A DNA stretch of 41,080 nucleotides, taken from Candidatus Acidiferrales bacterium (GTDB lineage Bacteria; Acidobacteriota; Terriglobia; Acidiferrales; UBA7541). Both the position numbers and the translations under genes were made by a program. This document shows, piece after piece, positions 3,613-34,723 of the stretch (the first letter of the stretch is position 1; every line of letters begins with the position of its first letter). The DNA is taken from NCBI GenBank assembly GCA_030038275.1, contig JASHPG010000031.1, positions 1-41,080 on the forward strand. Reading direction: 5' to 3'. Below the pieces are notes generated by a model. That model worked only from the letters and a program-made list of their open reading frames with translations. It searched no databases and was not told the DNA's origin.

Positions 3613-4653
3613 ATGTCTTCGAAATCCGGGAATGCGTTTCGCGTAGCGATCGTCGGCGCCTCTTCGCTGCTCGGCAAAGAACTGAAGCAGGTTCTCGACG
3701 ACCGCCGCTTTCCAGCCATTGATATCCAACTGCTAGATGCCAGCGTCATGGCCGGGACGCTTACGGAAGCGGGCGGCGAGCCGACATTCATTCGCGCGAT
3801 TGATGAAGATAGCTTCGAAGGCGCGCGCTTCGCATTTTTCGCCGGCAGCGCCGCGGAAACCGAGCAGAATTGGCGCGCCGCGCAGCGGGCCGGCGCCACG
3901 GTGATCGACCTGACCGGCTGCCCGAACGTGTCGTCCTCCTTCGCGTGGATCCCGTCGCTCACCTCCGTGCTGCCGCCGCGAGATGGGCGTGAAGCCGGCG
4001 CACAAGGGGCATTCACAAACACTTCTCCGCCAGCGCCAGTGATCATCGCGTGTACGCTCGCCGCGGGGCTGTCTAAATTTCAGCCGCGGCGGACGATCGC
4101 TTTACTGTTTCCGCCGGTTTCCGAGCGCGATCAACCCGGTATCGACGAACTCGAAAGCCAGACGGCCAGCCTGCTTTCGTTTCGCGAGATCGGCCGGCAG
4201 GTGTTTGACGCGCAAGTGGCGTTCAATCTGCTGGCGCAATACGGCGCGGCCAGCAAACCGCGCCTGGAAGAGGTTCGCGCATCGATCGCGCGCGACGTGG
4301 CCTCTTACCTTGGTGGTCGTGTTCCCGCACCCGCGATTCAGTTGCTGCAAGCGCCGGTATTTTACGGGTATGCTGTCGCCGCGTACGCAGACCTCGGAGC
4401 TGATGGGCCGGCGAGATCTTTAGAGGAAATTGCTGCATCGCTAGCGGGCCTCGGCGCAAAGGTCGCAGCCGCTGAAGATTCTCCGCCGGACAACGTTAGC
4501 GTGGCTGGCGAGAGCGAGATTCAGTTTGGGCCGATTACGGCCGATCCGGACATCCCCGGCGGCATTTGGATTTGGGGCGTGGCGGATCATTTGCGATTGG
4601 CCGCCACGAATGCAGTGCGCATCGCGGAGGAATTGATTGCCACGCCGCAATAG
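3613..4653 (+). CDS. Aspartate-semialdehyde dehydrogenase-like protein lacking the catalytic Cys/His (USG-1-like)
   Basis: The product is 346 residues from the ATG at 3613. The N-terminus is a Rossmann nucleotide-binding motif of the ASADH family (RVAIVGASSLLGKELKQVL). The central ERDQPGIDELESQTASLL matches the family dimerisation region. In true ASADH the active-site Cys lies in NPNCST; here the equivalent stretch reads NTSPPAPVIIA, with no Cys. The later RVPV-x-x-GH motif reads QAPVFYGYAVAAY, so the catalytic His is apparently replaced by Tyr. The protein is therefore probably not an active dehydrogenase, resembling the USG-1 group of ASADH paralogues. It sits between pssA and lptE, with a 2 nt gap before it and a 17 nt overlap after it. 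Its role is unknown; NADP sensing or scaffolding are possibilities. Confidence 0.8.
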   Translation: MSSKSGNAFRVAIVGASSLLGKELKQVLDDRRFPAIDIQLLDASVMAGTLTEAGGEPTFIRAIDEDSFEGARFAFFAGSAAETEQNWRAAQRAGATVIDLTGCPNVSSSFAWIPSLTSVLPPRDGREAGAQGAFTNTSPPAPVIIACTLAAGLSKFQPRRTIALLFPPVSERDQPGIDELESQTASLLSFREIGRQVFDAQVAFNLLAQYGAASKPRLEEVRASIARDVASYLGGRVPAPAIQLLQAPVFYGYAVAAYADLGADGPARSLEEIAASLAGLGAKVAAAEDSPPDNVSVAGESEIQFGPITADPDIPGGIWIWGVADHLRLAATNAVRIAEELIATPQ

Positions 4654-5221
4654 AGGGCGACGTTCCCAGCGCAATCGGAATCGCGTGGGCGCTGGCTGGC
4701 GGCCATGCATCGCGCTCTGCGCGGCAATTCTCTTCGCAACAATTGTCGTTGGGTGCGGCTACCACGTCGCCGGACGCAGTTCGAACCTGCCAGCGGAATG
4801 GACGACGATCGCGGTTCCCACGTTCAAGAATGACACGGTGCAATACCGCATCGAGCAGCGCTTCACCCAGGCCGTCATTCGAGAATTCATCACGCGGACG
4901 AAATACCACGTCGTTTCCGATCCGGAATCGGCGGATGCGACGTTGCACGGAGAAATCCTTTCCATTGAGACGTCGCCGGTTCTATTCGACGCGACGACCG
5001 GCCAAGTGACCACGATGCTCGTGACCGTACACGCACGAGTCGCGCTCGAAGGCGCAAAAGCGGAAAAGCCTGTATATCAAAATAACGACATGGTGTTCCG
5101 CAGCGAGTATCAAATCCCATCGAACGTGAGCACGTTTTTTCAGCAAGAAGATCCCGCGCTCGAACGCATGGCGAGAGACTTCGCGTCGCAGTTGGTGGCG
5201 AATGTGCAGGAGGGCTTCTAA
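4637..5221 (+). CDS. lptE: LPS-assembly lipoprotein LptE
   Basis: LptE plugs the LptD barrel and helps insert lipopolysaccharide into the outer membrane. The 194-residue product begins at a TTG with a GGAGG ribosome site at 4626-4630, 6 nt upstream. A GTG at 4685 is an in-frame alternative. The basic N-terminus and hydrophobic stretch end in a lipobox, VVGC, with the lipidated Cys near residue 40, followed by the family hallmark GYHVAGR. Typical LptE segments follow: TTIAVPTFKNDTVQYRIEQ, then FITRTKYHVVSDPESADATL. The start lies inside the upstream ASADH-like gene, and the TAATG junction shares one base with holA. This pairing of lptE and holA is widespread in Gram-negative genomes. It supports an outer membrane with LPS-type lipids. 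Confidence 0.92.
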   Translation: MPRRNRGRRSQRNRNRVGAGWRPCIALCAAILFATIVVGCGYHVAGRSSNLPAEWTTIAVPTFKNDTVQYRIEQRFTQAVIREFITRTKYHVVSDPESADATLHGEILSIETSPVLFDATTGQVTTMLVTVHARVALEGAKAEKPVYQNNDMVFRSEYQIPSNVSTFFQQEDPALERMARDFASQLVANVQEGF

Positions 5222-6279
5222 TGCCCGCGGGTTCTCCTGAAAAGCTGATCGCGTCCTTGCGCGCGGGCAAACCGCCGGCCGCCGTCGTACTGCTGGGCAG
5301 CGATAGCTATTTGCGCGAGCTTTGCCGGAATAAGATCATCGAGGCGAGCGTTCCTGAATCGGCGCGCGATTGGGCGCTGGCTCGCATTTCAGCGCGCGAC
5401 GCGGAATGGGACGAGATTCTCAGCCGCGCGGCCACCATGCCGATGCTGGCCGAGCGGCAATTAATTCTGGTTGATGGCGCTGAATCGGTTGAACGGTTCG
5501 GCGAAGATTCCCGTGAAGAAGTCCTGAAGGTGATGGGGAAATATCTAGCCTCACCGGCTCCTTTCACGCTCCTGGTGATCGAAGCGGATGCGCTCGATCG
5601 CCGTCAGAAGTTTTTCAAGCTACTCAATGAACACAAGAATGTGCTCGTTGTTGAACTGACGATTGGCGCCGAATCAGCAGCGGCGGTAGCCGAACAGATG
5701 GCTCGCGACTTAGGAACGGAAATCGATCGTGATGCAGCCGCGCTGCTGGCCGAAATCCAAAATGGCGAGCCCGCCCGGATACATATCGAGCTGGAAAAAC
5801 TCGCTGTCTATGTCCAGCGACCAGAGGGCAGTGGGCGTATCGCGTTACAGGATGTGCGGAAGCTGGTCGTTGCGGCGCGGCGAAATACCGTCTGGGAACT
5901 TGCCGACATGTTGGTGAGCCGAAACCGCAAGGGCGCGCTCGCGTTTTTGGAAAATCTGCTGCGCGAAGGCGAGGAGCCGGCGGGAATCGTGGGCGCGCTT
6001 GGGTGGACGTACCGCAAGTTGATTGAGGCGCGCGAATTGCCCGCGCACATGCCGGGATATCAAGCTGCTAGACAACTTCAAATGCGCTCCGAGTCGGCGG
6101 AACTTGCGGTGCGTCAGGCGCACCGCGTCTCGAAGGCGGAATTGCTCGCGGGATTGGCGGCGCTCGCTGAAGCGGATAGCGCGTTCAAATCTAGGAACCC
6201 TGATCCGCGTGCCACCATGGAATTCCTAATCGCGAGGCTCACCTCCACGGCAAACGCCAAAGCTACTTCCTCGCGCTGA
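5221..6279 (+). CDS. holA: DNA polymerase III delta subunit
   Basis: HolA is the clamp-loader subunit that opens the beta sliding clamp. The 352-residue length matches the family. The N-terminal AAA-like domain starts with PAAVVLLGSDSYLRELCRNK, and the beta-wrench region contains AATMPMLAERQLILVDGAES. The middle domain has GEPARIHIELEKLAVY and RRNTVWELADMLVSRNRKGA. The C-terminal helical collar includes GALGWTYRKLIEARELP and ends with ALAEADSAFKSRNPDPRATM. As usual for delta, no functional P-loop is visible. The ATG overlaps the lptE stop by one base (TAATG), so translation is likely coupled. It is the last gene of the rightward run, and terminator-like hairpins follow. Confidence 0.94.
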   Translation: MPAGSPEKLIASLRAGKPPAAVVLLGSDSYLRELCRNKIIEASVPESARDWALARISARDAEWDEILSRAATMPMLAERQLILVDGAESVERFGEDSREEVLKVMGKYLASPAPFTLLVIEADALDRRQKFFKLLNEHKNVLVVELTIGAESAAAVAEQMARDLGTEIDRDAAALLAEIQNGEPARIHIELEKLAVYVQRPEGSGRIALQDVRKLVVAARRNTVWELADMLVSRNRKGALAFLENLLREGEEPAGIVGALGWTYRKLIEARELPAHMPGYQAARQLQMRSESAELAVRQAHRVSKAELLAGLAALAEADSAFKSRNPDPRATMEFLIARLTSTANAKATSSR

Positions 6280-12871: not shown

Positions 12872-14611
12872 TTACGCCCACTTATCGATGGGCACGCTCA
12901 TGCGATAGCTCATGTTGGCTATCTGATGGTAGGGGTTGGTTTCGCCGCCGACGACCGCGAAGTTGAACGATTCGGGTCGGCCCCACTTCGGCACCACGGC
13001 ATCGTCGGCCATACTTGCGGCGTCTCTAGGTGGGCGGCTGAAGAGGCACGACTTCAGGTGCCCCACCGTGTCGGTTGCGTTCTTCTGCAGCCAGGCGGCC
13101 AAGTCTTCCTTCTTTTTGTAACCCCGGTCCACCAGGCCCAGCGCCACCAGAGGATCCATCACGATGAACGCCCCAAAGATGGTGGCAAACGGCACACAAT
13201 TGCAGGCCATCGCCTCTTCGTAGTGCGGAACGGGCTTGATGCCTAGCCCCCATCCGCCCTGCGCTTGCTGAATGCCGAATCCGAAGAACAAGCTGATCAC
13301 GTTCTCTTCCTTCTTGAAGCCTTTTTGAACGTGAAGCGGCTCGTACGGACTCGCCTCTTCATTTTCGGGGATGATCAGGTTGCTGTAGTTGATCACGTTG
13401 CCCTGCGAGCCTTCGTACGTCTGGCCCGGCAGGCCGCCGTTACACAGGTTTTTCGAGAGCAGGCCCCACGCGCGGCCGATATTCGAGTTCGGCTGTGAGA
13501 ACGGACCCATGGCGCCGATTCCGAAGTTCATGTTGAGCTTGTTGCGAATTGGCCCATTGATTACTGCGGCATACACCAGCGAGTTCGTCGAGCTGAACAG
13601 CGCTGATTGTCCGCTGCCCGCCAGCGCCAGGATCGTCGGGAAATAATCCGGCGATGCGCCCGACATCACCGCGTTGATCGCCACTTGCCGGACGTTGAAC
13701 GACCACGCCGGGAACGCGCCCTGCGCGGGAGTTAGCTTCCCAACCGCCTCATCGGGCGAATGGCTGGTGCCCTTGAGCATCGCATCGACTTTTTCTTCGG
13801 TTGGGATAACGATCGGCATAAAGTCCGTCATGCCGTTGTCCATGTAATACTTCTGCAGACCGTCCGCGGTATCCACGAACGTCGCGGGCCCGATGGACGG
13901 CGTATACGATCCGGACTTTGATTCTTCGGGCGTGAGCGGCTTGGTAAGCGCGCTGACCACTTCCGGCATCAGCGGCTTATGTGTCACCGGATCGTCGCCA
14001 ACGAGATAGTCCCACATTTGCTCGGGCGTCTTGCCCCATACCGGATGTGGCGTGAACACAATGCGCAATCCGGGCATGCCGCGGCTCGCGGCGTTGCTCT
14101 CGGCCAGGTCGTGGAAAGCGATGGTGACCATGGGCGCCGTGGGAATCCCCATTTTTTCGTACTCTACGCAGTGACCGACGGTCGCTGGGGTGCACGTGCT
14201 TCAATGTCCAATGGCCATGATCACGGCGTTGCCGTTGGCCTTCACCTCCGCGTTGAGCTTGGGGTCATCCGCCGCGAATCCGCCGGCCTTCAGACGATAA
14301 ATCGTCTTCACGCTGGGCATGTTCTTGGCGAACCAAATCTTCACCTCGTTAAGAAACACGTCCGCGCCTGGAAATCCATCGGAGATCAAATAGACCGTCT
14401 TGCCATCGAGCGTCGAAAGCCGCGGTGCCATCGGAAGCAATTGGACAGCGGGCGGAGTGCCCCGGGGATTGAGCCCGGTGATCTTATCGCCGCCAGCGGA
14501 TGAATGCCTGGCGTGCGATTGCCTGGTTTTCTTCTCGGCCGCGTCTAGTCGGGAGCCCGCCAGAAGGGCTGGAGCGGCACCCAGCAGAGATAACATGCTG
14601 CGCCTTTTCAT
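12872..14611 (-). CDS. Putative UGSC/GrdB-like selenoprotein with in-frame UGA (Sec137)
   Basis: One reading frame runs from the ATG at 14611 (after AGGAGA) to the TAA at 12872. It is interrupted only by a TGA at 14203-14201. Decoding that TGA as selenocysteine gives 579 residues. The N-terminus is twin-arginine-like (MKRRSMLSLLGAAPALLAGS), suggesting Tat export. Around the TGA the sequence reads MAIGH-U-STC-TPATVGHCVEYEKMGIPTAP. This matches the U-x-x-C site and following E-x-x-GIPT of the UGSC family and of glycine reductase component GrdB. The C-terminal 400 residues contain INGPIRNKL, GPFSQPNSNIGRAWGLL and ENEEASPYEPLHVQKGF, a conserved domain I recognise from UGSC proteins but whose function is unknown. 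A SECIS-like hairpin follows the TGA. The alternative is a nonsense-mutated pseudogene. A thiol/selenol redox role is inferred. Confidence 0.82.
14169..14203 (-). promoter_or_regulatory. Candidate bacterial SECIS element with UGA codon
   Basis: The UGA occupies 14203-14201. Downstream, CAGCGACC (14187-14180) pairs with GGUCACUG (14176-14169) in a stem of seven pairs with one C-A mismatch. The 3-nt loop GUC lies at 14179-14177. The loop begins after 21 nt, and its first base is G. The bacterial SECIS rule, as I recall it, requires a loop about 16-37 nt from the UGA with a G in the first two loop bases; both are met. SelB would bind this hairpin to deliver Sec-tRNA. Confidence 0.7.
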
Positions 14612-15138: not shown

Positions 15139-16134
15139 ATGCCAGAGGAGATTATGCAATCTGAACCGAACATGGACGTGGCTCACCTGGGCCACGTGGA
15201 AGTGCTGACGCCGAAGCTCGATGAAAGCGTCCGATTTTTCGTGGAATTGGGAGGCATGACGGAATGCGGCCGCAAAGGCGATTCCGTCTATCTGCGCTGT
15301 TACGACGATTACGAGCGCTGCTCGCTGAAGCTGACCGCATCGAAGCTGCCGGGAGTCGGCCATGTGGCGTATCGCACGCGCAGCCCGCAGGCGCTCGAAC
15401 GGCGCATCGCCGCGCTGAAAGGCTCCGGACTCGAAATCGGCTGGAACGATGGCGACCTGGGCCACGGCCCGGCGTACGTCTGCACCGACCCCGACGGTCA
15501 CAAAATCGAGCTGTATTACGAAACCGAATGGTATCAAGCGCCGCCCGAATTGCGCCCTGCGATAAAAAACCAGCCCGAGAAATTTCCCGGACGCGGCATG
15601 AACCTCCGCAGGCTGGATCACTGGAACGCGCTGGCCGCCGACATCAAAGCCAACCGCGAATTCTACGAAAACTATCTCGGCTTCCGCCTCACCGAACAGA
15701 TCGTGCTCGACAATGGCATCGAGGCGGGCATGTGGATGACCTGCACCAATAAAAGCTACGATCTGGCCTATTCGCGCGACAACACGGGAAGCCATGGCCG
15801 CCTTCATCACGTCACATTCGCCGCGAACAGCCGCGAAGAGGTTCTGCTGGCCGCCGATATCGCGCTGGAAAATGGCATTCGCATCGAGACGGGGCCGCAC
15901 AAGCACGCCATTCAGCAGACGTTCTTTTTGTACTTGTTTGAGCCGGGCGGCAACCGCATTGAAATCGCCAATGCCGTTGCGCGCTTGATCCTAGCTCCTG
16001 ATTGGAAGCCGATTCGCTGGAGCGAAGCCGAGCGCAAAAAGGGCCAGGCGTGGGGACTCAAAACCATCGAGTCGTTCCACACCTATGGCACGCCGCCGGT
16101 GGAAGTCCCGAGCGAAGTGGGCAGCAAGGCTTAA
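15139..16134 (+). CDS. Type I extradiol (catechol 2,3-dioxygenase-like) ring-cleavage enzyme
   Basis: The 331-residue product consists of two vicinal-oxygen-chelate modules, as in catechol 2,3-dioxygenases. The N-terminal module starts HLGHVEVLTPKLDESVRFFV and the C-terminal one LRRLDHWNALAADIKANREF. Candidate Fe(II) ligands fall in the second module: H161 (RRLDHW), H223 or H224 (RLHHVTF) and E275 (GGNRIEIAN), the usual 2-His-1-Glu triad. The enzyme should cleave a catechol-like ring next to its hydroxyls to a semialdehyde. An ATG at 15154, closer to a GAGGAG site, is an alternative start. It heads a rightward cluster with an RraA/CHA-aldolase-like gene, an NTF2-like gene and a dehydrogenase, which supports a meta-cleavage role. 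The exact substrate is unknown. Confidence 0.87.
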   Translation: MPEEIMQSEPNMDVAHLGHVEVLTPKLDESVRFFVELGGMTECGRKGDSVYLRCYDDYERCSLKLTASKLPGVGHVAYRTRSPQALERRIAALKGSGLEIGWNDGDLGHGPAYVCTDPDGHKIELYYETEWYQAPPELRPAIKNQPEKFPGRGMNLRRLDHWNALAADIKANREFYENYLGFRLTEQIVLDNGIEAGMWMTCTNKSYDLAYSRDNTGSHGRLHHVTFAANSREEVLLAADIALENGIRIETGPHKHAIQQTFFLYLFEPGGNRIEIANAVARLILAPDWKPIRWSEAERKKGQAWGLKTIESFHTYGTPPVEVPSEVGSKA

Positions 16135-16250: not shown

Positions 16251-16928
16251 ATGAGCAAGCCGGTCGTGGTCCGCAATATCGAGCAGCCCGCGCAAGACGC
16301 TGTTGACGCTCTCGAAAAATTCGGCGTCTCGACGGTGCACGAGGCACAGGGCCGCATCGGATTGCTCGCGTCGTACATGCGCCCGATTTATCCCGGCGCT
16401 TCGATCGCCGGAGCCGCCGTCACCGTGTCGCTTCCGCCCGGCGACAATTTGATGATTCACGTTGCCGTGGAAGTCTGCAAGCCGGGCAACATTTTGGTCG
16501 TCGCTCCCACGTCGCCATGCACAGACGGCTACTTTGGCGAGCTGCTCGCCACGTCGCTGCGTGCGCACGGTGTAAAGGGACTGATCATCGAGGCGGGCGT
16601 CCGCGACGTTCGCCCGCTCACCGAAATGAAGTTCCCGGTCTGGAGCCGCGCCGTACATTCGCAAGGCACCGTGAAAGCCACGCTAGGCTCCGTGAACGTG
16701 CCGGTCACTTGTGCGGGCGCGCAGATCGATCCCGGCGACGTAATCGTCGCGGATGACGATGGCGTGGTTGTCGTGCGCCGCTCGGCCGCGCGCGAAGTGG
16801 TAGCCGCGTCCGCGCAGCGCGTCGCCAAAGAAGACAAAACGCGCGAGCGTCTCGCCAAAGGCGAACTCGGCCTCGATATGTACGGCCTGCGCGAAAAAGT
16901 GAAGCAGCTCGGCCTGGAATACCGCTAG
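16251..16928 (+). CDS. RraA-family protein, 4-carboxy-4-hydroxy-2-oxoadipate aldolase-like
   Basis: The 225-residue product is of the RraA/HMG-CHA aldolase family. It has the N-terminal [20 protein letters not shown], then [20 protein letters not shown], and the active-site segment [17 protein letters not shown], whose Arg-Asp pair positions substrate and metal. The C-terminus carries [20 protein letters not shown] followed by a long helix, a feature of the aldolase rather than of the shorter RNase E inhibitor RraA. These aldolases split 4-carboxy-4-hydroxy-2-oxoadipate to pyruvate and oxaloacetate in protocatechuate 4,5-cleavage and gallate pathways, and can decarboxylate oxaloacetate. Its place after an extradiol dioxygenase makes that role plausible. 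It starts at the ATG 6 nt after GGAGGGG. Confidence 0.85.
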
Positions 16929-17522: not shown

Positions 17523-18443
17523 ATGGCTGCACAATCGTTTCAAAAAATCGCCGTCATCGGATTCGGAGAAGTAGGAGGCATCTTCGGCCGCGATCTCGCC
17601 GATCGCGGCATCACCGTTGCCACCTTCGACATTCTTTTCGATTCGCCGCCCGTGCGCGACGCTATGCTCGCCAAAGCGCGCGATTGCGGCGTTCACTCCT
17701 GCGAAAGCGTCGGCGATTGCTTGCGCGGAAGCGAACTCATCATCTCGGCGGTCACGGCTTCATCAGCGGTCGGCGTCGCTGAACAGGCTGCATCGATGCT
17801 TGCGCCGGGACAGGTTTATCTCGATATCAACTCGGTATCGCCGCGAACCAAGTCGCGCATGGCGGATCAATTCGAGCCCAGCCGGGGCGAGTTTGTCGAA
17901 GCTGCCGTAATGGCCGCCGTTTCGCCGCAGCGCCTCAAGGTGCCGATGCTTCTCGGTGGCTGCTACGCTGCTGAACTCGCTCCGCGCCTCGCCGCCATCG
18001 GCATGAACGGTAAAGCCGTCAGCGAGCGCGTCGGTATCCCGTCTGCCACGAAGATGTGCCGCAGCGTAATTATCAAGGGACTCGAAGCGCTAGTAGTCGA
18101 AAGCATGTTCGCCGCCCGCCACTATGGAGCCGAGGAAGCCGTGCTCGCCTCGCTCGCCGCCACTTATCCGGATATGGGTTGGGACAAAAATTTGCCGGAT
18201 TATTTAATCAGCCGCGTTGCCGAGCATGGCCGCCGCCGAGCTGCGGAAATGCGCGAAGCCGCGCAGGCCGTCAGCGACGCCGGCCTTGAGCCGCACATGG
18301 CTCGTGCCACAGCCGCGCGTCAGGATTGGCTCGTGGATGAAATCGCGTCGCACGACGTAAAGGACCGCGCCAGAGAGAATTTCTCATGGCGCACTCTCGC
18401 CGACGCCATCTCCGAAGCCGAGAACTCCCACAAGCCTCGCTAA
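17523..18443 (+). CDS. NAD(P)-dependent dehydrogenase with C-terminal DUF1932
   Basis: The 306-residue product belongs to the 6-phosphogluconate/3-hydroxyisobutyrate dehydrogenase superfamily. It starts with the Rossmann motif KIAVIGFGEVGGIFGRDLAD. YLDINSVSPRTKSRMAD is the usual substrate-binding strand, and FVEAAVMAAVSPQRLKVPML follows. The conserved Lys region lies near SATKMCRSVIIKGLEALVVE, and the C-terminal helical part matches DUF1932. Members of this group oxidise short hydroxyacids; the exact reaction is unknown. It is the last gene of the aromatic-type cluster, 21 bp after the NTF2-like gene, so oxidation or reduction of a ring-cleavage product is a reasonable guess. A hairpin follows at 18516-18535. 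Confidence 0.83.
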   Translation: MAAQSFQKIAVIGFGEVGGIFGRDLADRGITVATFDILFDSPPVRDAMLAKARDCGVHSCESVGDCLRGSELIISAVTASSAVGVAEQAASMLAPGQVYLDINSVSPRTKSRMADQFEPSRGEFVEAAVMAAVSPQRLKVPMLLGGCYAAELAPRLAAIGMNGKAVSERVGIPSATKMCRSVIIKGLEALVVESMFAARHYGAEEAVLASLAATYPDMGWDKNLPDYLISRVAEHGRRRAAEMREAAQAVSDAGLEPHMARATAARQDWLVDEIASHDVKDRARENFSWRTLADAISEAENSHKPR

Positions 18444-30181: not shown

Positions 30182-32239
30182 TCATTTCTTCCGCTGCGGT
30201 TGCTGGGAGTTGTAGGCCTGCCAATCGAGCGAAATGACGTAGTCGTGGATGGCATCGACCTGTTTCGCGGTGAGGACGCCGCTCCAGGGCGGCATGCCGG
30301 CGACCTGCAAAATTCCGCCACGGACGATCTGCTGAAATTCCGTGTGGGCCGCGGGCGGCAGGCGGCGAAGATCGGGCGCGAGGCTGCGGTCCATATTCAG
30401 ATGGCACGAAGCGCAGTGGTCGCTGAATAGCTGCTGGCCTTCCTTGATGGTTTGGGCCGTGCCGGTTTGCGCCGGAGGCTTGGGGAACGGCGGAAGCGGC
30501 GGAAGCAGCGGCGGGACGGGCGTAGAGCCGCCATTCAGCTTGAAGGCAAGAATGCGTCCTTCATTGCCGCGCTGATAGACGGCGCTATTCGGATGCGCGA
30601 AGTTCCATCCGCCGCCGCCCCATGCGGCCATGACGGCGACGTACTGCACGCCATCGATTTCATAAGTCATCGGCGCGGCGACGATGGTAGTGCCGGTGAA
30701 AATCGATTTCAGCTTGCGTCCGGTTTTCGCGTCGTAGGCGTTGAAATAGCCGTCGCCGGTTCCCTGAAAGACGAGGCCGCCGGCGGTGGACATCACGCCC
30801 GGATGGTCCCACCAATCCGTCATTTTCACGTTCCAAACGGCTTTGCCGCGAATCGGGTCCCACGCGCGCAGGTAGGCGTTGCCGGAAAAAAGAGTGCTTT
30901 GGCCGTTTTCGATGGCCGGGATGTAAACGAGGCCCGTTTGCGGATCCCAGGACATGGGATCCCAGTTGTGGCCGCCCATGGGCGAGGGCTCGATGTACTT
31001 CTTGCCGTTCACCGAGTATTTGAAGTCGCGCGCGTCCGGCGCTTCGACCGGGCGGCCGGTTTTCAAATCGACGTACTTCGCCCAGGTGACTGGAACGTAG
31101 GGATTCGCGGAGAGGAGTTTCCCGGTTTTGCGGTCAATGATCATGAAGAAACCGGGCTTGGGCGCCTGCATGATTACTTTGTGGACGGTGCCATCGATTT
31201 TCAGGTCGGTGAGGATTAGTGGCTGGACGACATCGAAATCCCACTGATCGCCGGGAACTTCCTGGTAATACCAGGCCATGCGCCCGGTATCGGGATTGAG
31301 CGCGATGATCGACGAGATGTAGAGATTATCTCCGCCGTCGGGGCTGCGCTGCTCGCGATTGTAGAACGTGCCGTTGCCGGTGCCGAAGTAGACGAGATTG
31401 AGTTCGGGATCGTACTGGATGGCGTCCCAAACGGTGCCGCCGCCGCCCATTTTCCAATCGCTTTTTGGATCCCAGGTCTTGGCCGCTTTTCGCAGCTCGG
31501 GATTTTCGTACGGCTTATTCGGAGGGCCGGGAACGGTGTAGAAGCGCCAGGCGAGTTTGCCGGTGTCGAGATAATAGGCGCTGACGTAGCCGCGCGCGTC
31601 GTATTCAGCGCCGGCATTGCCGATGATGACCACGTGGTGCGCCACTTCTGGCGCCCCGGTGCTGGTGTAGCCGCGGGCGTGATTGGCGATGGTATCGACT
31701 TTCCAGATGACGCGGCCGGTGCGGGCGTCGAGCGAGTAGAGATGGCCGTCGAATGAGGCGACGTAAACTTTGCCTTCCCAGACGTCTATGCCGCGATTGT
31801 CTTCATCGCAGCAGGCGTGCTGATTGACGCGCATGTTGTTCGAAGGATCGAACGTCCAGATGCCTTTGCCGGTGCGCGCGTCGAGCGCATAGACCTGGCC
31901 GACGGGGCCGCTTGCGTACATCACGCCATCGACGACGATGGGAGTGGCTTCGAGGCCACGGACGGTGTGCGTTTTATATTCCCAGGCGAAGCCGAGACGC
32001 GAAACGTTGGATTGATTGATCTGCGTGAGCGGCGAGTAGTAGCTCCTGCCGAAGTCGCGTCCGGAAGTGAGCCACTCGCCGGGATGCTGGTTCTCGGCCA
32101 TGAGGCGCTTCAGATTGACTTGGCCGTAGGCGCGATAAGCGGCGGCGCGCGTCTGCGCGAGGGCTTTGGACGCGCCACACGCGAAAATCGAAACAGCAAT
32201 GGCCGCAAGCAGCGGCAAGAATACGGCTTTGCGTTTCAC
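30182..32239 (-). CDS. PQQ-dependent quinohemoprotein alcohol dehydrogenase with lanthanide-type Asp signature
   Basis: The 685-residue exported enzyme oxidises alcohols in the periplasm using PQQ, passing electrons to a fused cytochrome c. A signal peptide (cut near ALAQ) is followed by the eight-bladed propeller. It has the vicinal disulfide C143-C144 in ACCDEDNRG and repeated tryptophan-docking motifs. FGTGNG provides the metal-binding Asn. The catalytic segment PGDQWDFDVVQP has D334 plus D336; an Asp two residues after the catalytic one marks lanthanide-using enzymes such as XoxF and PedH. A Pro-rich linker (PVPPLLPPLPPFPKPP) leads to the c-type domain with CASCH (609-613) and probable Met ligand M649. 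No PQQ synthesis genes are in the window. The exported DUF8021-like gene is directly upstream. Confidence 0.93.
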   Translation of the reverse strand: MKRKAVFLPLLAAIAVSIFACGASKALAQTRAAAYRAYGQVNLKRLMAENQHPGEWLTSGRDFGRSYYSPLTQINQSNVSRLGFAWEYKTHTVRGLEATPIVVDGVMYASGPVGQVYALDARTGKGIWTFDPSNNMRVNQHACCDEDNRGIDVWEGKVYVASFDGHLYSLDARTGRVIWKVDTIANHARGYTSTGAPEVAHHVVIIGNAGAEYDARGYVSAYYLDTGKLAWRFYTVPGPPNKPYENPELRKAAKTWDPKSDWKMGGGGTVWDAIQYDPELNLVYFGTGNGTFYNREQRSPDGGDNLYISSIIALNPDTGRMAWYYQEVPGDQWDFDVVQPLILTDLKIDGTVHKVIMQAPKPGFFMIIDRKTGKLLSANPYVPVTWAKYVDLKTGRPVEAPDARDFKYSVNGKKYIEPSPMGGHNWDPMSWDPQTGLVYIPAIENGQSTLFSGNAYLRAWDPIRGKAVWNVKMTDWWDHPGVMSTAGGLVFQGTGDGYFNAYDAKTGRKLKSIFTGTTIVAAPMTYEIDGVQYVAVMAAWGGGGWNFAHPNSAVYQRGNEGRILAFKLNGGSTPVPPLLPPLPPFPKPPAQTGTAQTIKEGQQLFSDHCASCHLNMDRSLAPDLRRLPPAAHTEFQQIVRGGILQVAGMPPWSGVLTAKQVDAIHDYVISLDWQAYNSQQPQRKK

Positions 32240-32372: not shown

Positions 32373-33353
32373 CTAGCGCGCGTCCCAAACCGAAGGCATG
32401 TTGTACGGAACTCCCGCCATGGTGGCTTCGATCTGGAAAATTTTTCCGCTGCGAATCTTGAAAAGCTCCAGGATGTCGAGACTGCTTGGCATGTGAAAAG
32501 GAGTTTCAAGTTCGCGCCCGTCGGTCAGCTTGTAGTGCGTGACGTTGCCGCTGTGGTCGATAAACACGCGCACGAGAAGCAGGCCGCGCTCGGTATCGAC
32601 GACGGGAAAGCCGCGGCTGCGCGTGCGATCGTCGTAATAGAAGTAGCCCGTCTTGAACTGGCCTTCGCAGCCGAGATTGGTGACCGGGAAAATGTGGTAC
32701 GACGGATTATTGGTGGACTGCATGCCGTTTTCTTCGCGGTTGCAATCGGGATCGAACGTCGTGTGGATGGTGCCGTTGTTGCGCTGCAGAGTGTCCAGGT
32801 AGCCGTTCACGAGCTGAATCATCTTGGCGCGCGGGCTGCGTTGGTTTTCAGGGAGCATACCTTGAAACCAACCTCGCTTCGCGAAATGGTCGAGAGCAGG
32901 CGCAGCAATCAGCCCCCCGGGCCGCGCGACTACCGTTTCGATCTGCGTGATTTTGCCGTCGGCGATCTTCATGCGCATCGCGTAGGGCGAGTTCGTCTTG
33001 CCCTCCTGCACCACGTCGAGAAAACCGACTTCGCCCTCGGGAACGTCGGCGAACTGGATGCCGCCAGGGCCCATGGCGGTGTAGGTGTTCCAGAGGCCGT
33101 CGCCGACTTTCAAGAAGACATTATTTTCGGAGAACTTGTAGTTCGCGGCGAGCGGCAGGCTGCCGGGCTTGTGCGCGGCGAGCGCCTTCAGATACCGATC
33201 GAGATAGCCGTAGAGGCATTGCCGGTTGCAGTTGGACGAAGCCGCGGCGCTGGCGCGCGGCGCGCGATTTCGCGCGCTGGCAGTCGTCGGCAGCAGAGCC
33301 GCGGATGCAGAGAACGCAAGGCAGGCCGCAATTGCAATGAAAGTTTTGCGCAT
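32373..33353 (-). CDS. Exported SnoaL/DUF8021-like protein
   Basis: The 326-residue product starts at the ATG at 33353, after GGGGGG; the frame is open 101 codons further but non-homologous. A signal peptide (MRKTFIAIAACLAFSASAAL) is followed by a conserved start of the domain. This has CNRQCLYGYLDRYLKALAAH, then SLPLAANYKFSENN and KVGDGLWNTYTAMG. Repeated strands such as MRMKIADGKITQIETVVA and LLVRVFIDHSGNVTHYKL suggest two SnoaL-like/NTF2-fold modules. I recall this layout from the DUF8021 family of secreted bacterial and fungal proteins, whose role is unknown. It lies 133 bp upstream of the quinoprotein on the same strand, so shared expression is possible. Confidence 0.7.
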   Translation of the reverse strand: MRKTFIAIAACLAFSASAALLPTTASARNRAPRASAAASSNCNRQCLYGYLDRYLKALAAHKPGSLPLAANYKFSENNVFLKVGDGLWNTYTAMGPGGIQFADVPEGEVGFLDVVQEGKTNSPYAMRMKIADGKITQIETVVARPGGLIAAPALDHFAKRGWFQGMLPENQRSPRAKMIQLVNGYLDTLQRNNGTIHTTFDPDCNREENGMQSTNNPSYHIFPVTNLGCEGQFKTGYFYYDDRTRSRGFPVVDTERGLLLVRVFIDHSGNVTHYKLTDGRELETPFHMPSSLDILELFKIRSGKIFQIEATMAGVPYNMPSVWDAR

Positions 33354-33542
33354 AGAACCCCCCAATTTGAGCAGCGAACGAACCACCCAGCCGATATGGC
33401 CCAGTTGAATGCGAGAGTGTACATCAGAAGAATCGAATCGGAGCAAGGATTTGGACGGCGGATGGGCGTCGCGGGCGAGCATTAAGGTGGTCGACAGCAG
33501 GAAATTTTGAGGGCCGCGAGTGTTAAGCGCGACGAGCGGTGG

Positions 33543-33571
33543 TTGCCGCGTGCGGGATAGGCGTCTATGAT
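33543..33571 (+). promoter_or_regulatory. Sigma-70-type promoter of the Mrp/ApbC gene
   Basis: A -35 TTGCCG (33543-33548), a 17-nt spacer and a -10 TATGAT (33566-33571) lie about 70 nt upstream of the ATG at 33641. The divergent gene on the minus strand starts at 33353, so the region between holds both promoters. Confidence 0.6.
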
Positions 33572-33640
33572 GAGTTGTTGCGCAGTGCGCGGCGTGATGG
33601 ACGTGCGCGGCACTGAAGCAAATTTCTTCAAAGGGGAACC

Positions 33641-34723
33641 ATGGCGAGCGGAGCAAGCGAAGCGGCGGTGCTGGAGGCGTTGCGCGGAGTGATCGATCCA
33701 GAGCTGCACAAGGATATCGTCACGCTGAAAATGGTGAAGGTGCTGGGGCTGAACGACGGCGCAGTGACGCTGCAGGTGACGCTGACCACGCCGGCATGTC
33801 CGCTGCGCGAGACGATCGAGAAGGACATTCGCGCGGCGCTCGCCAAAGTCCCCGGCGTGAATAACGTGATGCTGCGGTTCGATTCGTCCGTGCCGGAGGG
33901 CCGCCGTTTGCAGGATAAAGCGCCGATTATGGGCGTGAAAAACATCATCGCGGTGGCGAGCGGCAAGGGCGGCGTCGGCAAAACGACGGTGGCCGTGAAC
34001 CTGGCGATTGCTTTGCGCAGCATGGGCGCGGCAGTGGGCTTGCTCGACGCGGATGTATATGGGCCGAACGTGCCGGTGATGCTGGGCACCACGGAACAAC
34101 CCAAGGCGCTCGACGAGCGCACGATCATCCCCGTGCAAGCCTATGGCGTGAAGATGATCTCGATGGGGCTACTAAATCCCGGCGATAAACCTCTGGTGTG
34201 GCGCGGGCCGATGCTGCACAGCGTGATGCAGCAGTTTCTGCGCAGCGTGCGCTGGGGACAACTCGATTATTTGATCGTGGATTTGCCTCCGGGAACGGGC
34301 GACGTGCAACTGAGCCTGATTCAAAGCGTGGCGGTGAGCGGCGCGGTGATTGTGACGACGCCTTCGATTGTGGCGCTGGCGGACGTACGCAAAGCCGTCG
34401 AGATGTTCAAGCAGGTGAACGTGGAAATTCTGGGCGTGGTGGAAAACATGAGCTACTTCGCGTGCCCGCATTGCCAGGGGCGCATCGATGTCTTCGGGCA
34501 CGGCGAAGGCGAACGCATGGCCCAGCAGTTTGGCGTGCCGTTTCTCGGCGAGATCGAAATCGATCCGCAGATTCGCATTGGGGGCGATACGGGGAAACCG
34601 GCGGCGTCGCTCGGACAGGACGCGCCCGGGGCGAAGAGCATGTACGCGATGGCGTCCAAAGTGGCGGCTCGAATTTCCGTGGTAAATTTGTCGGCATCCG
34701 CGCCCGTGGTGGAAATTCTGTGA
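33641..34723 (+). CDS. apbC: Mrp/ApbC Fe-S cluster carrier ATPase with N-terminal MIP18 domain
   Basis: The 360-residue P-loop protein carries and delivers [4Fe-4S] clusters. Residues 1-90 are a MIP18/DUF59 domain (GVIDPELHKDIVTLKMVKVL; TLTTPACPLRETIEKDI). The Mrp ATPase follows with the deviant Walker A VASGKGGVGKTTVAVNLA, then LLDADVYGPNVPVML and YLIVDLPPGTGDVQLSL. The cluster-binding CxxC is in ENMSYFACPHCQGRID. The Tyr-rich YFACPHC site and HGEGERMA match ApbC of bacteria. A ribosome site AAGGGG precedes the ATG, and a promoter lies at 33543-33571. It is a single gene, followed after 129 bp by the fatty-acid oxidation gene. Confidence 0.95.
   Translation: MASGASEAAVLEALRGVIDPELHKDIVTLKMVKVLGLNDGAVTLQVTLTTPACPLRETIEKDIRAALAKVPGVNNVMLRFDSSVPEGRRLQDKAPIMGVKNIIAVASGKGGVGKTTVAVNLAIALRSMGAAVGLLDADVYGPNVPVMLGTTEQPKALDERTIIPVQAYGVKMISMGLLNPGDKPLVWRGPMLHSVMQQFLRSVRWGQLDYLIVDLPPGTGDVQLSLIQSVAVSGAVIVTTPSIVALADVRKAVEMFKQVNVEILGVVENMSYFACPHCQGRIDVFGHGEGERMAQQFGVPFLGEIEIDPQIRIGGDTGKPAASLGQDAPGAKSMYAMASKVAARISVVNLSASAPVVEIL

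Follow-up and report, generated by a model that had tools for sequence, protein, structure and literature searches.

A probable UGSC-family selenoprotein gene of the Acidiferrales, fused to a second domain and multiplied within its genome

An in-frame TGA at codon 137 of a gene from a Candidatus Acidiferrales genome most probably encodes selenocysteine (Sec), and the gene is most probably a UGSC-family selenoprotein; from sequence comparison we place the probability of this reading at roughly 0.93. The single gene belongs to a known family, and what is new here is a probably exported, fused and highly multiplied form of UGSC, with a twin-arginine export signal, an expansion and tandem arrays. 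The gene lies in a stretch of 41,080 nucleotides (the window). On the minus strand, its frame runs from an ATG at 14611 through 136 sense codons, the TGA and 442 further sense codons to a TAA ending at 12872, which makes 579 codons plus TAA (1,740 nt) with the TGA at codon 137 as the sole internal stop. Because the plus-strand translation of 12872-14611 is full of stops, a plus-strand reading is ruled out. The preliminary description of this DNA had correctly placed a single TGA between two stretches of the same frame within these coordinates, leaving the strand unnamed, and the U-S-T-C context that it gave with the downstream residues is also as described, AIGH-U-STCTPATVGHCVEYEKMGIPT (GH-U-STC). 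The frame is free of other stops as claimed there, but the length of two kilobases was slightly high. The parts of the gene are as follows.

12872..14611, minus strand: complete putative UGSC-fusion selenoprotein gene, 579 residues plus TAA, with TGA codon 137 read as Sec
14492..14611, minus strand: signal-peptide-like N-terminus with twin arginine (MKRRSMLSLLGAAPALLAG...), the motif being conserved in relatives
14012..14473, minus strand: UGSC domain of alternating strands and helices, about residues 47-200, from profile match and model
14201..14203, minus strand: codon 137 (TGA), probably Sec; full-length homologues without the stop have Cys here, and all 15 paralogues of the genome have TGA
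14168..14203, minus strand: SECIS-like element, the UGA plus frozen codons 138-148, from synonymous freeze and covariation
12875..14011, minus strand: C-terminal domain, about residues 201-579 (~380 residues), with no Pfam, NCBIfam or PDB match

The UGSC domain runs across the TGA. Residues 47-136 align with positions 3-92 of the Pfam UGSC profile (PF24696) and the residues just past the TGA with positions 96-155. Because the profile positions continue past the TGA, one domain spans it, and the match on both sides indicates that the open frame is not a chance one. The joined protein scores 96.8 bits against PF24696, for which the gathering score is 25, and this bears out its earlier assignment to the UGSC family; against the NCBIfam UGSC equivalog model NF041046 it scores 85.5 bits, under the cut-off of 125. 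The [UC]-x-x-C motif is present as U137-S-T-C140, and position 137 is Sec or Cys and Cys140 invariant in 27 of 27 aligned sequences. In an AlphaFold2 model with a mean pLDDT of 79, the alternating strands and helices of the UGSC domain are followed by a second domain, and Sec137 is placed between a strand (residues 129-135) and a helix (residues 140-153). The large C-terminal domain without known function that had been noted before is confirmed as ~380 residues that match no profile in Pfam or NCBIfam. For the protein, no match emerged from a PDB profile search, and a Foldseek search with the model returned none at E <= 0.001; because there is no relative of solved structure, the reaction chemistry is unconstrained.

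If the TGA were a true stop, the locus would encode only a truncated piece of UGSC and, from a start of its own, a C-terminal protein, as a split gene or a pseudogene. An ATG start codon past the TGA, at 14152, would suit such an arrangement, and the two domains are indeed separate genes in other genomes, the C-terminal domain being encoded by its own gene near a UGSC-domain gene in other members of the phylum and on plasmids of haloarchaea. However, the TGA lies inside the UGSC domain, where the Pfam profile runs over it, and not at the domain border. Furthermore, all paralogues have the TGA at the same residue instead of scattered stops, the Cys homologues are single full-length ORFs, and the Sec copies have a common frozen RNA sequence after the TGA. 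Termination at codon 137 is therefore very improbable.

The reading of codon 137 as Sec agrees with the gene content of the host genome, which is 88% complete in 240 contigs. A search for selA, selB, selC and selD showed that it encodes SelA and SelD, a SelB that passes the curated cut-off, and a tRNA-Sec whose anticodon is UCA. In homologues the site holds Cys or Sec. Among 40 fusion-type frames from the loci compared, the site is TGA in 38 and TGC in 2. The two Cys genes (L055, 179-1924 and 2057-3820) run without interruption over 582 and 588 codons in an acidobacterial (Acidiferrales) MAG, and their products share 67% and 52% identity with the window protein. Neorhizobium galegae also has an uninterrupted ORF of 580 residues with GHCSTC at the site (L094, 2887-4629), and the homologues of Variovorax and Natrinema have Cys there. 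The one distant exception, on a plasmid of Sporomusa termitida (L079, 5977-7701), has lost both redox residues and has DMGTSS at the site.

An open frame by itself leaves the inserted residue unspecified, and the TGA might be read as another amino acid through general UGA recoding or near-cognate read-through. This is extremely improbable, since a canonical tRNA-Sec is present together with selA, selB and selD, and since Cys substitutes at the site in homologues. Genes of the family end in TAA, TAG or TGA, and because TGA ends several paralogues, the genetic code is not changed.

The selD gene of the host genome (contig C193, 13778-14725; locus L018) itself has one in-frame TGA and is of the Sec type; a UGSC paralogue is located 5.5 kb away on that contig. 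The two Cys genes of L055 stand in a tandem array with a Sec copy (3999-5729) in a single Acidiferrales MAG. Because the two Cys copies fall in separate, well-supported clades of otherwise Sec copies in the tree, two independent Sec-to-Cys changes have apparently occurred in this array. Such replacements within one tandem array provide a natural experiment on the reasons for retaining Sec.

The codons that follow the TGA are nearly frozen at synonymous positions. In the acidobacterial subfamily, 19 Sec copies show a mean pairwise synonymous difference at conserved amino acids of 0.025 in codons 138-148, as against 0.51 at 157 conserved sites outside them. No stretch of the same size in the gene has a lower value, and the overlapping stretch 136-147 equals it. 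Over 23 positions in codons 138-148, the Sec copies differ from the window sequence at 0-3 and the two Cys copies at 4 and 9. The RNA may form a hairpin, CAG-C-GACC(GUC)GGUC-A-CUG, with its apical loop 24-26 nt past the U of the UGA. Across 18 diverse sequences, standard pairs fill 85.7% of the hairpin pair cells as against 16-42% with the partner slid, and one pair covaries, being A-U in 8 sequences and G-C in 7; since the hairpin was deduced from these same, mutually related sequences, the counts support but do not prove it. The folding energy of the window hairpin alone does not differ significantly from that of shuffles (z = 0.71), and no RNA family reached threshold in an Rfam search of the window. 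A second subset of relatives has a possible GGUC loop at +20 to +23, which we take to be close to the arrangement of E. coli fdhF. The claim of a selenoprotein in the preliminary description is thus supported by the Sec machinery, by Cys or Sec at the site in homologues and by synonymous constraint downstream of the TGA.

The family is greatly expanded in the host genome. There are 16 matches: 15 genes, each with one TGA, and a single fragment of the C-terminal part where a contig ends. The 15 genes are 34-68% identical and have the TGA at the same site and no other stops. In a sample of 21 genomes of the taxonomic family, the genus is represented by two further genomes, one with 16 matches and the other with 10, of which nearly all contain one TGA; no matches were found in the 18 genomes from other genera. 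Because 20 of these 21 genomes have SelA, co-occurrence with SelA is uninformative. In g43, a second clade of the phylum, each genome has at least 4 copies, with 12-32 candidates at first look. Copies are arranged in tandem on several contigs (L051, L053, L055 and L056), and the relatives that bear a name are 'Candidatus Acidiferrales' MAGs, one of which has a copy that is 92% identical. Selenoproteins usually number one or a few per family per genome, and 15 members of one family in one genome represent a large and varied commitment to selenium chemistry. The UGSC selenoproteins recorded in 2016 across more than 5,200 surveyed organisms came to 33, spread over 26 of them; the largest selenoproteome known from any bacterium at that time comprised at least 39 selenoproteins of every type (PMC5029168). 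No description of the present expansion was found in the literature searched, most subscription journals lying outside it.

Standard annotation easily splits such genes at the UGA, and they are then missed. On plasmid p2-T1 of Acidovorax sp. T1, a homologue of the UGSC fusion in which the Sec codon position is TGA (L077, 7929-9700) is annotated solely as a short hypothetical protein that ends at the UGA. The plasmid p2-T1 is a conjugative IncP plasmid, and IS1071 lies near the homologue.

The N-terminus of the window protein carries the twin-arginine motif KRRSML ahead of a hydrophobic stretch. Nearly every copy of the own-genus type with a complete N-terminus has NRRK[LMI]L or a close variant, which is Tat-like, and the motif is absent from copies of the other clade. 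The AlphaFold2 model is of low confidence at the N-terminus, with pLDDT below 50 for residues 1-40. Conservation of the twin arginine in orthologues supports the Tat-like signal proposed previously, and the proteins are probably exported.

These observations suggest how the protein may be made and may act. UGA-137 would be read as Sec through SelA, SelB, SelD and tRNA-Sec, which the genome encodes, with the aid of the downstream hairpin. The folded product would probably cross the membrane by the Tat route, as the conserved twin arginine suggests. In the UGSC domain, Sec137 and Cys140 would form a redox pair where a helix begins, and the C-terminal domain would probably hold or shape the substrate site. 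The selenolate would then likely attack an electrophilic substrate, Cys140 would resolve the selenenyl-sulfide, and thiols would re-reduce the protein. The retention of positions 137 and 140 in every aligned sequence suggests that Sec/Cys137 and Cys140 form a selenenyl-sulfide pair. Oxidoreductase genes lie near some relatives: a thioredoxin-reductase-like gene is located directly upstream of a Rhodospirillales homologue (L058), and trxB or FAD oxidoreductase genes are found near homologues on three plasmids, among them trxB three genes upstream of the homologue on a Variovorax SRS16 plasmid. The Sporomusa termitida plasmid homologue adjoins an FAD-dependent oxidoreductase gene. TrxB-like and FAD oxidoreductase neighbours fit a reductase that depends on thiols and has a partner fed by NAD(P)H, the TrxB-like ones being near relatives that may lack export. 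Thiol/selenol reductase chemistry has about even odds on these sequence data, and a specific catabolic role is less certain than the chemistry.

Given Sec, the protein could instead be an exported factor for thiol or selenol protection or for disulfide handling, in defence against peroxides or electrophiles, and not a catabolic enzyme. Selenoproteins without a known role are mostly thought to be redox-active (PMC13188914, PMC9312934), and the UxxC pair and the thioredoxin-reductase-like partner in relatives fit such a role. However, the 15 diverged copies and the large conserved second domain suggest substrate diversity, and plasmid relatives sit among transporters and catabolic genes, so that a protective role is possible but tentative. 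The presence of about 15 diverged copies per genome suggests that the copies are specialised for different substrates. Further genes of the window are as follows.

15139..16134, plus strand: catechol 2,3-dioxygenase, divergent neighbour (TIGR03211, 334.7 bits, cut-off 320.2)
16251..16928, plus strand: 4-carboxy-4-hydroxy-2-oxoadipate aldolase of the LigK/PcmE type, likewise divergent (TIGR02798, 347.2 bits, cut-off 304.5)
17523..18443, plus strand: NAD-binding dehydrogenase with DUF1932, neighbour
30182-32239, minus strand: PQQ-dependent dehydrogenase of the methanol/ethanol type with a C-terminal cytochrome c domain, with ~20 relatives in the genome
38332-39729, plus strand: syringate O-demethylase of the DesA type (802.6 against a curated cut-off of 800), 24 kb from the window gene

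Because nearby genes of the window point to aromatics, plant-derived aromatic compounds may, by weak inference, be one candidate substrate class. The protein might then be a periplasmic enzyme acting on lignin-derived or methoxylated aromatics, for example by reductive cleavage or demethylation. Besides the dioxygenase, the aldolase and the demethylase of the window, a homologue of this demethylase lies directly upstream of the UGSC copy of L054, and downstream of the copy of L081 come an acyl-CoA ligase (PRK12582 subfamily) and a MetE-like gene. However, many other copies have no such neighbours and sit among unrelated genes, and aromatic substrates are therefore a lead only. Moreover, only one of the two DesA-type genes of the genome is on a contig with a family member, and the haloarchaeal and rhizobial homologues are found in different types of catabolic context. 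An enzyme dedicated to such aromatics is thus doubtful.

Two other kinds of neighbour were set aside. The PQQ-dependent dehydrogenase type occurs within ~2 kb of three paralogues of the genome, and this proximity is not counted because the genome has ~20 such genes. The window also encodes, at 32373-33656 on the minus strand, a member of a host-genome family of ~18 exported-looking proteins that have no convincing Pfam match; further members are on C125, C7, C104, C185 and other contigs of the genome, and several are near UGSC genes or a PQQ dehydrogenase. This recurring protein (alignment A4) was dropped as a UGSC partner because only two of the ~18 members adjoin UGSC genes in the host genome.

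It is conceivable that two separate groups, a genus that probably belongs to the Acidiferrales and a second clade in the phylum, use a multigene family of exported selenoenzymes, each for its own substrate, as an undescribed selenium-dependent form of extracytoplasmic catabolism, possibly of plant aromatics. We put this forward as a speculative proposal.

The gene is not new as a family member, contrary to the preliminary description, because UGSC selenoproteins and a fusion of UGSC with an unknown domain were described in 2008 (PMC2398784). UGSC selenoproteins are a known family (PMC2398784; PMC13188914), and in the marine data given in the former, Sec is commoner than Cys, with 255 Sec forms and 21 Cys forms. 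The window protein resembles the family (PF24696, NF041046) in its U/C-x-x-C site, in its domain and in a Pfam score well above gathering. However, it has USTC in place of UGSC, is fused to a domain of ~380 residues, is probably exported, stays under the NF041046 cut-off and occurs in about 15 copies per genome. In the Global Ocean Sampling survey of 2008, UGSC is fused to a conserved domain named 'Unknown_1' (PMC2398784, Fig. S1A). Both fusions join UGSC to a conserved domain of no known function, a likeness by description alone, whereas the earlier one is from an aquatic source and was reported with no expansion of paralogues (PMC2398784).

The B selenoproteins of glycine, proline, sarcosine and betaine reductase (GrdB, PrdB, GrdF and GrdH) are alike in their Sec(or Cys)-x-x-Cys site, but the window protein has a different second domain and a signal peptide. 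Positions 332-395 of the GrdB model align with residues 123-191, a weak local profile similarity around the Sec site that scores 12 bits against a cut-off of 602.2 (TIGR01917). Among the relatives, the GrdB and PrdB models reach best E-values of 0.005-0.06 in a minority, far below the cut-off, and no partner genes of the glycine or proline reductase type (grdA/grdE, prdA) were recognised among the listed neighbours. The GrdB-like character claimed previously is thus remote at most. Because the similarity is local and weak, the identification of the window protein as a GrdB is rejected, and the idea that it might work like GrdB is hypothetical. Formate dehydrogenase-N is a Tat-exported selenoenzyme, and it shares with the window protein the combination of a selenoprotein with a twin-arginine signal, whereas its fold and cofactors are unrelated.
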